The translations under genes were made by a program, and so were the position numbers. Shown in pieces: positions 26,697-47,722 of a stretch of 64,000 nucleotides of DNA. The notes under the pieces were generated by a model. The model searched no databases. It saw nothing but the letters and a program-made list of their open reading frames with translations, and was not told where the DNA came from. Each line of letters begins with the position of its first letter. Position 1 is the stretch's first letter. Source of the DNA: an uncultured Oscillospiraceae bacterium (lineage in GTDB: Bacteria; Bacillota; Clostridia; Oscillospirales; Oscillospiraceae); contig CANRHH010000010.1 in assembly GCA_947630375.1 (NCBI GenBank), positions 1 through 64,000 of the forward strand, in the 5' to 3' direction.

Positions 26697-27818
26697 TTGC
26701 GCGCGGAACGGTCCATAATAAGCACTGCCCAAAAAAATAGGGTGGTGCTTATTATTAAGAAATGGATATTTGCCAATTTAGCCCTTTTCCTGCTGTTGGG
26801 GCTGTGCCCGGCCGCCCAGTCCGCGGAGGAACCCTCTGTCAGCGCCCACAGCGCGATTCTGATGCACAGTGGGGGAGAAGTGGTCTACGAAAAAGCGGCC
26901 GATGAGCGCGCGCTGATCGCCAGCACGACAAAGATCATGACCGCCATTGTGGCTATTGAGAATCTGGATCCGGAACAGACCGTGGAGATCCGGCCGGAGT
27001 TTTGCGCGGTGGAGGGCTCTTCCATGTACCTGGTCCCCGGGGAGCGCTATACCGTCCGGGAACTGCTGACCGGGCTGCTGCTGGCCTCCGGCAATGACGC
27101 GGCCCTGGCCCTGGCCTATGCCGCAGCGGGGAGCGAGGAGGCTTTCGCCGCGCTTATGAACCGGAAGGTGGAGGAGCTGGGCCTGGAAAACAGCCGCTTT
27201 GCCAACCCCCACGGCCTTAACGCCGAGGGGCATTACTCCACTGCCAGGGACCTGGCGCGGCTCATGGACCACTGTATGCAAAACGAGCTCTTTGCCTCCC
27301 TCGCCGGTCTGCGCAGCTCTACCGTGAAAGAGCAGACTTATGTTAACCACAACAAGCTTTTGGACAGCTGCCCCGGCTGTATCGGCGGGAAGACCGGCTA
27401 TACGGAGCGGGCGGGCCGCTGCCTGGTAAGCTGTTGTGAACGGGAAGGGACCCGGTTTATTTGCGTGACGCTCTCTGCGCCGGACGACTGGAACGACCAC
27501 CAGAAACTCTACGACTGGGCCTTCGCGCACTATGCCGACCGGCTGGTGACCGAAGGGATCGCTTTTGAAGTGCCCGTGGTCTCCGGTGAGACGGAGAAGG
27601 TACGGGTAGAGCCGGAAGAGTTAAGGCTCTTTCTGCCCAGATCCGCCCAGCTGCGCCTGGAGGCAGAGCTGCCGTTCTTCGTGTTTGCCCCGGTACGGGC
27701 GGGGGACCCGGCGGGAACAGCCAGCCTGTGGCTGGATGGAGAAAAAGTGGGCGAGACCCGCCTGTTTTACACGGAGGACGTGGCGCAAAAGATGCGAACA
27801 AGGACAACGGGATCATGA
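26697..27818 (+). CDS. dacF: D-alanyl-D-alanine carboxypeptidase (DacF-type)
   Basis: About 373 residues from the TTG at 26697. Signal peptide (IFANLALFLLLGLCPAAQSA), then the peptidase S11 domain with S76-TT-K79, S131-G-N133 and K233-T-G235, and a C-terminal beta domain. It trims the pentapeptide of peptidoglycan. The start is unsure: TTG 26697 follows GGGAG by 3-4 bp, while GTG codons at 26742/26745 lie inside a 16-bp hairpin. Both keep the signal peptide. DacF is a forespore enzyme in Bacillus; the next-door gerW fits. Overlaps rluB by 4 bp. Confidence 0.92.
   Translation: MRAERSIISTAQKNRVVLIIKKWIFANLALFLLLGLCPAAQSAEEPSVSAHSAILMHSGGEVVYEKAADERALIASTTKIMTAIVAIENLDPEQTVEIRPEFCAVEGSSMYLVPGERYTVRELLTGLLLASGNDAALALAYAAAGSEEAFAALMNRKVEELGLENSRFANPHGLNAEGHYSTARDLARLMDHCMQNELFASLAGLRSSTVKEQTYVNHNKLLDSCPGCIGGKTGYTERAGRCLVSCCEREGTRFICVTLSAPDDWNDHQKLYDWAFAHYADRLVTEGIAFEVPVVSGETEKVRVEPEELRLFLPRSAQLRLEAELPFFVFAPVRAGDPAGTASLWLDGEKVGETRLFYTEDVAQKMRTRTTGS
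26715..26755 (+). promoter_or_regulatory. Long hairpin over the dacF start region
   Basis: Arms 26715-26730 and 26740-26755 pair over 16 bp (two G-U) around the loop AAAAAAATA. The right arm contains both candidate GTG start codons. There is no T run after it, so it is not a usual terminator. Confidence 0.6.
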
Positions 27819-35231: not shown

Positions 35232-35489
35232 GCCAGCGTTGACATAAATGCAGGCATAAATTTAAAAAATGGGCAAAAAAATTTTTCACAATATCTTGCG
35301 CCCGCCTGCTAAAATGCCAAAAATAATTACAAGAGCTTGGGCTGCTCGGTAACAAGTGTTAACATAAATGAAAAAAATTCTGTTTTTTTTGTTAAAAAAG
35401 GGCTTGATTATTTTGCTGATTTGTAATATATTGTTACTAACAAATGATTATGTCAATCAAAAAGTTATTTCCCGCCGGAGGGAGCTCCC
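35232..35489 (+). repeat. AT-rich intergenic region with a near-identical 13-bp direct repeat
   Basis: 258 bp without a gene. GTTGACATAAATG (35238-35250) and GTTAACATAAATG (35358-35370) match at 12 of 13 positions, 120 bp apart. The region is far more AT-rich than its neighbours. Confidence 0.6.
35404..35443 (+). promoter_or_regulatory. Promoter with a palindrome at the start site
   Basis: TTGATT (35404-35409), 17 bp, TATATT (35427-35432). Overlapping the -10 end and expected +1 is the palindrome TTGTTA-C-TAACAA (35431-35443), placed like a repressor operator. Confidence 0.65.
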
Positions 35490-35990
35490 ATGAGCGGGGG
35501 CGGAGACAAGCGGCAGGGCAGAACGGAAAGGCTTTTGATCTTCACAGCTTTTGTGGCCGGTTCCACGGTGTGCCAATGGATCTTAAAAGGGGAGACGCCC
35601 CTTGACGGATTCTTCCCGCTGGCCTGGCTCTATGCTCTGCTCCTTGGCGCAACGGCCGTGTTGGCGGCTTCCATGCTTGGGATCGCGCTGCTGCCCATCT
35701 GCGCGTTTATGTTGGGCGGTTTGACCGGCCGCTGCTCGGCACTCTTCGTGAGCGCTTGGCTGAGCGGGGCCGCGCCGGACCCAAAGGGCCTGATCTTCAG
35801 CGCCGTTGCCGTGCCGCTGTTCTTTATGATCGCCGTCCAGGGGATGCGCAGCTCCCAGCTGCTGGGCGCCATGCTTGACAACTGCGCTGCTGCCGTCCGG
35901 GCCCAATATCACAGAACTTACCTCTCCGTAGCTGTCGCCGCAGCGGCCGGGGCAGCAGCCGTCTATTGGATCTTGGGCATATACAGATAG
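35490..35990 (+). CDS. Five-helix membrane protein of unknown family (SpoIIM-like by position)
   Basis: 166 residues with five hydrophobic segments (about 14-32, 41-62, 66-90, 99-118, 144-164) and no signature motif I recognise. In Bacillus and many Clostridia, spoIIM, a five-helix membrane protein of engulfment, lies next to xerD, so this could be a short, diverged SpoIIM; sequence alone does not show it. GGAGGGAG precedes the ATG. Confidence 0.6.
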   Translation: MSGGGDKRQGRTERLLIFTAFVAGSTVCQWILKGETPLDGFFPLAWLYALLLGATAVLAASMLGIALLPICAFMLGGLTGRCSALFVSAWLSGAAPDPKGLIFSAVAVPLFFMIAVQGMRSSQLLGAMLDNCAAAVRAQYHRTYLSVAVAAAAGAAAVYWILGIYR

Positions 35991-36016
35991 ATTACCAGGA
36001 AAGAAGGGCGTTTTAC

Positions 36017-36907
36017 TTGCAAAATTCTCAGTGTATGGAGCTATACGAGAAGTATCTCAGAGAGGAGAAAAAGGCATCCAACAATACCCTTAGCTCTTAT
36101 CTCCGGGATATTCGCCAGCTTTGCGAGTATCTGGACGCCTATACAGGCGCGACGCTGACGACCGTCCGCCACGAAGAGCTTGCCGAATACATTGCCTGGC
36201 TTAAAAGCCATGGAAAGTCGGCGGCGACGGTGTCCCGGGTCATCGCCTCCTTCAAAAACTTTTACTCTTTTCTGTGCATCCGCCAGATCGTGGAGGAAAA
36301 CCCGGCCACCGGTCTGGTATCTGAAAAGGCAGAGCATAAGCTGCCGCAGATCCTGACCAGCAAAGAGGTGGAGCTTCTGCTGGAGCAGCCGGAGTGTGTG
36401 GATGCCAAGGGATATCGAGACAAGGCCATGCTGGAGCTCTTGTATGCCACGGGTATCCGCGTGACAGAGCTGATCGACCTGAATATAAGCGATGCGAATA
36501 TTGCCGCCGGGGTCATTCGCTGCCACAGCCGGAACAAAGAGCGTTTCATCCCCATGTATCCCGCTGCCATCAAAGCTTTGAGCGAGTACATAAGCAAGGT
36601 AAGACCCCATATGATCGCCGTTCCGGACGAGCCCGCGCTGTTCGTCAATGTCTCGGGAGAGCGGATGTCCCGCCAGGGCTTTTGGAAGATCATCAAATTT
36701 TATCAGAAAAAGGCCAAGATCGAGAAGGATATCACGCCCCACACGCTGCGCCACTCCTTTGCGGCGCATCTGCTGGAAAACGGCGCCGACATTCACGCTA
36801 TCCAGGAGATGCTGGGCCACGCGGATATCTCTTCCACCCAGGTCTATTCCCAGCTGGTAAAAAAACAGTTGAAAGACGTGTACAACAAGGCTCACCCCAG
36901 GGCCTGA
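36017..36907 (+). CDS. xerD: Tyrosine recombinase XerD
   Basis: 296 residues from TTG at 36017 (AAGAAGGG upstream); ATG at 36035 would also suit the family. The N-terminal SAM-like core-binding domain is followed by the catalytic set R148 (TGIRVTEL), K174, H242-xx-R245 (HTLRHSFAAH), H268 (LGHADI) and Y277. Xer recombinases resolve chromosome dimers at dif. A second Xer-type gene with a dif-like site next to it lies 10 kb downstream (46643). A terminator follows. Confidence 0.92.
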   Translation: MQNSQCMELYEKYLREEKKASNNTLSSYLRDIRQLCEYLDAYTGATLTTVRHEELAEYIAWLKSHGKSAATVSRVIASFKNFYSFLCIRQIVEENPATGLVSEKAEHKLPQILTSKEVELLLEQPECVDAKGYRDKAMLELLYATGIRVTELIDLNISDANIAAGVIRCHSRNKERFIPMYPAAIKALSEYISKVRPHMIAVPDEPALFVNVSGERMSRQGFWKIIKFYQKKAKIEKDITPHTLRHSFAAHLLENGADIHAIQEMLGHADISSTQVYSQLVKKQLKDVYNKAHPRA

Positions 36908-46624: not shown

Positions 46625-46656
46625 GACCGGAGCAATCCGGCCTTATTCCTTTTCTT
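46616..46656. terminator. Bidirectional terminator, radA operon / xerC
   Basis: AGGAATAAGACCGGA, loop GCAA, TCCGGCCTTATTCCT, then TTTT. It serves both convergent units and overlaps the end of the recombinase gene. Confidence 0.88.
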
Positions 46657-47659
46657 TTTGTTCTTCTTCGATTTCTGCCCGGGTTTTGCGCCCGATGGGG
46701 TTTGCCATGGCCGCCTCATGAAGGGAGGCGTTGTCCAGATGGGTATAGATCTGCGTGGTGTTCAGGTTGCTGTGGCCCAGCACTTCCTGGAGAGCCCGGG
46801 TATCCACGCCGTTTTTCAGCATCAAAGTGGCCGCTGTATGCCGCAGCTTATGGGGAGAATAACGGGTGCTGTCCAGCCCGGCCTGCTTCAGCTTTTTTTC
46901 CACCATTTTCTGCACGCCCCGGACGCCGATGCGCCGGTTGTCCCGGCTGATAAAGAGGGCGTTTTTGTCCTCCGGGGCGATCTTTTCGCTGTCCCGGACC
47001 GCCAGATAGTCGTCGATCGCCTCCCGGCAGCCCTCGGCAAAGTATATGACGCGCTCTTTATTGCCTTTGCCCAGCACCCGCAGATGGTCCTCATAAATGT
47101 CCGTCAGGTTCAGAGAGACAAGCTCGGAGATCCGCAGACCGCAGGACAGGAACAGCATCAGAATACAGTAATCCCGCAGGGCAAAGGGGCCGTCACAGGC
47201 TGCCAGCAGCCGCTCGCACTCGGCTTCCTCCAGATATTTTGGCAGCGAGGCTTGGCGCTTCGGCATGTCAAGTTCTTGACAAACATTATGATCCAACAAA
47301 TGCCTCTTGGCGGTAAGATAGTTAAAAAAGGATTTGACAGACGACGTGCGCCGGCAGCGGCTGGCCGCGGAGAGCGCGTTGGAGGAATTTTGCATCTCCG
47401 GAGAGAATGACTGATACCGGTAGAGCTCCTCGATCCGCGTGGCGCGGATGAAATCAATATCCACGTTGGTGATGTCTATCTCGTTAAACGGCGTGCCGGG
47501 ATCCACCAGATGTCGGCGCCGCTTGAGATAGCGAAACAGGATTTTCAGATCCAGATAGTATCCGGTGACGGTTTTATCCGAGTGTCCGCGCACGGTGGAG
47601 TGATATTCCAGAAATTCCATGAGAATGTCCGGCGCATCTGTAATTTGGTCCAGATTCAA
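46643..47659 (-). CDS. xerC: Xer-type tyrosine recombinase (XerC-like)
   Basis: 338 residues, longer than usual XerC (about 300). N-terminal core-binding domain (MEFLEYHSTVRGHSDKTVTGYYLDLKILFRYLK) and the complete catalytic set R176 (CGLRISELV), K198, H270-xx-R273 (HKLRHTAAT), H296 (LGHSNLNTTQ), Y305. AAAGGAG precedes the ATG. A 28-bp dif-like site lies 35 bp upstream of its start codon. It could be the XerC partner of xerD at 36017, or a stand-alone recombinase with its own site, as in streptococcal XerS/difSL. There is no cargo or element around it. Confidence 0.85.
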   Translation of the reverse strand: MNLDQITDAPDILMEFLEYHSTVRGHSDKTVTGYYLDLKILFRYLKRRRHLVDPGTPFNEIDITNVDIDFIRATRIEELYRYQSFSPEMQNSSNALSAASRCRRTSSVKSFFNYLTAKRHLLDHNVCQELDMPKRQASLPKYLEEAECERLLAACDGPFALRDYCILMLFLSCGLRISELVSLNLTDIYEDHLRVLGKGNKERVIYFAEGCREAIDDYLAVRDSEKIAPEDKNALFISRDNRRIGVRGVQKMVEKKLKQAGLDSTRYSPHKLRHTAATLMLKNGVDTRALQEVLGHSNLNTTQIYTHLDNASLHEAAMANPIGRKTRAEIEEEQKEKE

Positions 47660-47694
47660 GAGATGGCTCCTTTCTTAAAAAACGGCCTGCATGA

Positions 47695-47722
47695 AGTTCG
47701 CTTAATTGATATTATGCGAACC
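47695..47722. other. dif: dif-like Xer recombination site
   Basis: 28 bp: left arm AGTTCGCTTAA (47695-47705), centre TTGATA, right arm TTATGCGAACC (47712-47722). The arms are inverted copies at 9 of 11 positions. The 11-6-11 layout and TTATG..AAC half-site match known dif sites; on the minus strand the arm GGTTCGCATAA differs from the E. coli XerC arm GGTGCGCATAA at one position. Confidence 0.72.

Follow-up and report, generated by a model that had tools for sequence, protein, structure and literature searches.

The window, by which we mean the whole stretch of 64,000 nucleotides analysed here, contains a 28-base inverted repeat beside a gene for a Xer-type recombinase, together with a separate xerD gene. 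A preliminary description of this DNA took the repeat to be a dif-like site placed next to its own recombinase gene. The features concerned, in order of position, are as follows.

35239..35456, three TTATGTNAA motifs (35239 minus strand, 35359 minus strand, 35448 plus strand), upstream of xerD around its presumed promoter; proposed lone XerD half-sites
35966..36907, plus strand, xerD gene encoding a classical XerD (TIGR02225, 338.0 bits; cut-off 329.6)
46643..47659, minus strand, xer gene, 338 amino acids, TTG start; proposed sole recombinase from its residues, NCBIfam scores and tree
47695..47705, plus strand, dif arm 1, AGTTCGCTTAA, read directly; the arm closer to the xer gene, kept in the genus
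47706..47711, no strand, 6-bp centre TTGATA, read directly; putative strand-exchange region
47712..47722, minus strand, dif arm 2, TTATGCGAACC (outward GGTTCGCATAA), read directly
47748, no strand, peak of the cumulative GC skew in the window, 26 bp beyond the site; inferred meeting point of the replichores

The 28-base site and the replication terminus

Direct reading of positions 47695–47722 gives a 28-base site of layout 11-6-11, AGTTCGCTTAA-TTGATA-TTATGCGAACC, with a mirror match between the arms at 9 of 11 positions, short of a perfect 11/11. This confirms the dif-like arrangement of inverted 11-bp arms around a 6-bp centre that had been described. The site lies upstream of the xer gene, and the coordinates likewise return the reported 35 bp (47660–47694) between it and the TTG start of the 338-residue frame. 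Arm 2, read outward as GGTTCGCATAA, agrees at 10 of 11 positions with what we take to be the E. coli XerC half-site, in keeping with the earlier remark that one arm is a single base away from it; the same arm also matches 8 of 9 positions of TTATGTNAAC, an XerD-type motif.

Allowing up to three mismatches, the 28-mer occurs once in its own assembly (64 contigs, 2,332,525 bases), which is the single copy that had been expected. A 24-mer pattern of the inner arms has one match in the window, at zero mismatches, and its shuffled control averaged 0.16 matches with up to three mismatches allowed. A B. subtilis-type dif pattern had no match within the 64-kb window at three mismatches. The skew is +0.072 to the left of the site and −0.045 to the right, with the cumulative peak at the site, so that neither this search nor the skew profile points to a better dif elsewhere in the window, an alternative that the preliminary description had raised.

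Other genomes place the site similarly. In five that were chosen among site carriers for their long contigs and analysed over 38–40-kb stretches, the skew peak lies 46 bp (G131), 1,236 bp (G419), 845 bp (G221), 325 bp (G288) and 1,048 bp (G357) from the site; in a further genome (G096), 258 bp separate the site and the local skew peak. In G068, chosen as a single contig, the peak of a 40-kb stretch is 7.8 kb away. Across three single-contig genomes, the distance from dnaA to the site amounts to 46.9% (G131), 51.1% (G068) and 50.5% (G419) of the circle. We then compared titled Clostridia loci with and without a site, keeping 49 of 80 after dropping L182–L199 (except L185) and loci with flanks shorter than about 3 kb. 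A plus-to-minus skew switch was present at 21 of 26 loci with a site versus 3 of 23 without (Fisher P = 2.3e-6), and at one of these three (L167) a 10/11 site had escaped the rule. Five of the 26 carry a site and no switch, and 20 of the 49 loci have neither. In Clostridium jeddahtimonense (L142), where the gene coincides with the skew peak, relaxed rules returned no convincing palindrome. As a separate observation, one family gene (L345; G088 C1:675200-695199) lies where the skew turns from negative to positive, a position that is origin-like rather than terminus-like.

KOPS-like GGGNAGGG motifs in six regions point toward the site 31 times and away from it 8 times. We set this bias aside as evidence, because GC skew and gene strand alone can yield it. 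Its single copy and its place at the skew switch, together with the conservation and gene linkage described below, support the original proposal that a dif-like site here adjoins the gene for its own recombinase, and the 28-base site is very probably the chromosomal dif of the window bacterium.

Conservation of the site and its link to the gene

Searched at E 1e-60, the window protein has a match in 82 of 99 genomes. The genus accounts for 61 genomes including the window's own: 46 have the gene, 15 have no gene match, and 44 have readable upstream DNA, one locus (L073, upstream region beyond the contig) and the fragments of G011 having been set aside. In G011, a genus-pattern match adjoins a gene fragment. 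All 44 readable loci carry the site upstream of the orthologous gene, with inner positions scoring 17–22 of 22, so the site is kept in close relatives, as had been anticipated. The genus pattern at two mismatches matched 15 genomes among the 99 relatives, and a backward control gave one match, in G085; the matches in G032 (C26) and G088 look like chance and were rejected.

In 40 of the 44 genus loci the site starts 43–103 bp before the gene. Such spacing would fit an operator, that is, a palindrome that regulates the promoter of the recombinase gene and is no recombination site, and an inverted repeat suits a dimeric regulator. Loci beyond the genus bear on this reading. Other families of the order supplied 36 loci (counting L081 and L093, which have little or no upstream DNA), and 13 of them carry an 11/11 palindrome with an A/T-AA core within 1 kb upstream of the gene; controls yielded no perfect palindrome in the 36 gene bodies and none in 100 Markov resamples. 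Perfect dif-like sites also occur farther from the gene, at a distance of about 6.5 kb in G068, 6 kb in G096 and 1.2 kb in G097. When 16 same-order genomes were re-read over up to 20 kb, a perfect dif-like site was absent in 14 and present only in G096 and G097, and several of the 16 have the family gene away from any skew switch. Perfect palindromes in G072, and second ones in G096, G131 and L185, pass the rule and look terminator-like by judgement.

A gene-independent search of the class with one arm type (ATTATAC) found sites in 31 of 391 genomes, once in 30 of them and twice in G119, against none of 391 for the reversed pattern. Thirty of the 32 places were turned into loci, and in 24 of these the family gene is within 1.5 kb of the site, which is upstream in 21 and downstream in 3; in four of the 24 (L212–L214 and L223) the gene is partial, clipped by the end of the locus or contig. 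With the arm type fixed, the 6-bp centres differ among genomes. The second ATTATAC-arm site of G119 (L266 position 1828; C55) has the centre TTAATC and lies where there is no plus-to-minus skew switch. Titled genomes with perfect sites include Pseudoflavonifractor gallinarum, Clostridium hydrogeniformans, C. lacusfryxellense, an Acutalibacter, Gemmiger formicilis, Peptoniphilus gorbachii and Anaerococcus ihuae. Because sites also lie downstream of the gene (L212–L214, L149) or about 6 kb off (G068, G096), we reject an operator as the main role. It would also leave the link to the skew switch and the 47–51% distance from dnaA unexplained, and we consider it highly improbable; the two roles can coexist.

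Sites of this kind are found on phage contigs as well. Fifty-eight stretches of viral contigs (L230–L256 and L311–L341) have perfect 11-6-11 sites that fit five clostridial arm patterns, and the reversed control of one arm pattern gave none. Several of these sites adjoin terminase or portal genes. The family gene is present in three of the 58 stretches, which probably represent host DNA. No tyrosine recombinase match was found in 22 of the first 27 viral records, and no serine recombinase match in 21 of the 26 searched, records that are possibly fragments. The viral centres are mostly unlike the chromosomal centres found here; with centres mostly of their own, the action of a host enzyme on phage multimers fits better than integration at dif. 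In one viral contig (L250 position 347), the centre is the reverse complement of the chromosomal centre of G112, and integration at dif or a host flank is possible there.

Same-arm sites on phage contigs might also speak for a mobile-element remnant, in which gene and site were left by an element that integrated at the terminus. We ruled this out, at a probability close to nil, by the genus-wide presence of the site (44 of 44 readable loci), its usually single copy per genome and the phage centres, most of which differ from the chromosomal ones; the scarcity of the gene in phage stretches (3 of 58) also counts against it. Genus-type sites were absent from the viral contigs searched, and the window's own site therefore has no phage support.

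One recombinase or two

The xer gene had been called XerC-like. Its product is indeed related to XerC and XerD; it is not XerC by the NCBIfam cut-off (236.5 bits against 335.15). It likewise missed the cut-offs for XerD (211.1 against 329.6), XerS (144.6 against 267) and archaeal XerA (201.4 against 220). The XerC and XerD models both match all 26 aligned family members; the comparison with cut-offs concerns the window protein only. Across 26 aligned relatives, R176, K198, K201, H270, R273, H296 and Y305 are invariant, a set that presumably includes the catalytic residues of the recombinase. A structure model of the window protein has a mean pLDDT of 87.6 and a pTM of 0.69. Against known structures, the family profile scored 182.9 bits for XerD and 108.6 bits for XerH (5jjv), which also ranked below the XerA structure. 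The same profile matched chain 14 of PDB entry 9i5v over residues 1–302 (E 4e-47); this chain is labelled RaiA, and the label is apparently wrong.

In a tree of 37 rows, 30 family rows stand apart (100/100) from five reference XerC/XerD rows and two Clostridia XerD rows. Ten of 16 labelled comparison rows were left out of this tree (one Tepidanaerobacter, five Clostridia XerD and four integrases), and its rows include neither XerH nor XerL. The depth of the split is unsure, because long branches meet and the bootstrap is unsettled.

The arms themselves suggest how many proteins bind them. Classical dif sites have outer arm bases that are specific to the recombinase (PMC2731167). Across 32 distinct genus sites, picked on inner bases alone, 77 of 96 comparisons at the outer three positions are complementary; permutations of the outer positions gave a mean of 51.7 and a maximum of 69, and none of 20,000 reached 77. 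Collapsing the sites to 15 distinct outer pairs left 33 of 45 positions complementary, a value equalled by 2 of 20,000 permutations. Both permutation results ignore relatedness among sites. The outer bases thus mirror each other and change in concert, as expected for one protein on both arms. Symmetry and concerted change together suggest a single enzyme that would bind both.

Classical XerCD/dif offers a different account, in which the adjacent gene is a diverged XerC acting on one arm and the XerD encoded at 35966 acts on the other. A separate xerD had been noted in the window, and it stands: the product of 35966–36907 passes the NCBIfam XerD cut-off (338.0 against 329.6 bits), and the window genome and most of the genus retain XerD. 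One arm of the window site is a single base off the XerD-type motif TTATGTNAAC, and most genus sites share one asymmetry in their inner part, with CATAA on one side and CTTAA or CTAAA on the other.

The distribution of Xer genes argues against this account. Counted at E 1e-30 in 29 of 38 same-order genomes, with absences here and below judged on draft genomes, the family gene is the sole Xer-type match in 10; six more have no other Xer-type match above 126 bits. An XerD of at least 290 bits is present in 13 of the 29, and 16 have the family gene and no comparable XerD match. Five of the ten sole-match genomes have a perfect site beside the gene (G069, G070, G073, G074 and G090); in the other five (G063, G065, G072, G081 and G088) no site was found, the upstream DNA of G065 being scant. 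Seen from the sites, 7 of the 13 perfect same-order cases have XerD and 6 do not (G069, G070, G073, G074, G090 and G093), so sites are perfect both where XerD is present and where it is missing. The search of 13 titled genomes at E 1e-40 gave a single Xer match in each of two carriers of perfect sites, Peptoniphilus gorbachii and Anaerococcus ihuae, which again places perfect sites where XerD is missing; in Gemmiger formicilis and Ruminococcus FC2018 the family gene is accompanied by one match of about 140 bits. Six of the 13 carry XerD along with the family gene, two of the six showing additional, weaker matches, and Tepidanaerobacter, Sutcliffiella and Vibrio harveyi each have two Xer genes, outside the family.

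XerD may have sites of its own. The motif TTATGTNAA, which we take to be an XerD half-site, occurs six times in the window against 0.42 expected. Besides the three copies upstream of xerD, there are copies at 27338, 54602 and 55290. In an alignment of ten genus xerD loci (the window's own and the nine best XerD matches in the genus), two of the upstream footprints are kept in all ten and the third in seven, amid diverged flanks. The dif arms match the XerD motif at only 3–6 of 9 positions in six of the seven genomes in which both sites were read, whereas the copies upstream of xerD are retained, which also tells against XerCD use. The seventh is the window genome, with arms at 8 and 7 of 9. 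At other termini, TTATGTNAA is raised over expectation in G068 (3 against 0.68), L137 (9 against 2.92) and L140 (5 against 0.70), and near expectation in G131, G419, L121, L138, L142 and L174. Two papers cite work in which B. subtilis XerD unloads SMC at the terminus (PMC12322038, PMC13342612). By analogy, XerD, where present, may act mainly elsewhere, at lone half-sites and in SMC unloading near the terminus, and it may control its own operon.

The preliminary description left open whether the site has its own recombinase or is used by XerCD. Mirror arms that change in concert, and the lack of any second Xer-type match in 10 of 29 same-order genomes, favour its own recombinase over classical XerCD across the lineage; for the window genome itself, with its XerD and 9/11 site, XerCD use keeps some plausibility. 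We consider classical XerCD/dif an unlikely explanation overall. Our preferred reading, to which we assign a probability of about 0.75, is a Clostridia single-recombinase Xer/dif system, in which the family enzyme alone would bind both arms and resolve chromosome dimers. We consider it equally probable that the neighbouring enzyme works alone in the lineage, and somewhat less probable that it works alone in the window species.

In the single-recombinase system, the adjacent gene would supply a tyrosine recombinase, related to XerC and XerD and belonging to Clostridia, that acts alone on both near-symmetric arms. If a chromosome dimer formed during replication, its two sites would meet at the septum, and a tetramer of the one recombinase would cleave at both borders of the 6-bp centre and swap strands, so that the dimer is converted to monomers. 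Delivery and activation of the recombinase complex would probably fall to FtsK; its gamma domain was detected in 10 of 11 genomes, the window's own included. Binding, cleavage, control by FtsK and dimer resolution are all inferred from sequence.

As a tentative scenario that we rate somewhat below even odds, an enzyme related to XerC and XerD may, in Clostridia, have taken over both dif arms and come to resolve dimers alone. XerD, thereby freed, would have been kept for lone half-sites (at its own operon, in SMC unloading, or both) or lost, and phages may borrow the host enzyme for their multimers. If the single-recombinase reading holds, dimer resolution would rely on simpler machinery and a near-palindromic site in many gut Clostridia, and also in Anaerococcus, Peptoniphilus and some species of Clostridium. 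The site would then be a precise marker of the terminus in draft genomes, the enzyme a means of excising markers in anaerobes with one protein, and the lineage a natural test of the role of XerD once it is dispensable at dif.

Relation to known Xer systems

Dimer resolution by a single recombinase is described for streptococci and lactococci, epsilonproteobacteria, archaea and Legionellales (PMC5357621, PMC2731167, PMC9765430). The review counts Firmicutes as users of XerCD (PMC5357621), and XerCD-based profiles gave predicted dif sites for 97 of 100 Firmicutes but failed in C. perfringens, C. beijerinckii and Lactobacillus helveticus (PMC3025954). In the titles and abstract openings that we surveyed, which included few subscription journals, no Clostridia single-recombinase Xer system or gene-linked dif was described; some Clostridia sites may have been published before as ordinary dif, in which case only the one-recombinase reading would be new.

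The system proposed here resembles XerS/difSL of streptococci and lactococci in its one recombinase, gene-linked site and terminus position (PMC5357621, PMC2731167). However, difSL is atypical and 31 bp long (PMC5357621), and the window protein scores far below the XerS cut-off (144.6 bits against 267). XerH/difH of Helicobacter and Campylobacter likewise has one recombinase and a site that is linked to the gene in most species and lies near the skew peak, whereas difH has arms of the TATTGAAAAC..TTTTCAAA type (PMC2731167). Archaeal XerA/dif shares the single recombinase and the 28-bp site (PMC5357621; see also PMC2958812 and PMC3646895), but the window protein falls short of the XerA cut-off (201.4 bits against 220), and an FtsK gamma domain is present in the window genome. 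With XerCD/dif of B. subtilis and E. coli, the site has in common the 28-bp 11-6-11 layout, similar inner bases and the terminus position (PMC5357621, PMC2731167). By contrast, the classical outer arms are described as recombinase-specific, and those found here mirror each other and co-vary.

XerL/dif of Legionellales is similar as an order-wide single-recombinase system that homology searches had overlooked, and as one with a site mimic on a mobile element (PMC9765430). It belongs to another lineage, and XerL has been demonstrated experimentally (PMC9765430), whereas the Clostridia system is proposed from sequence.
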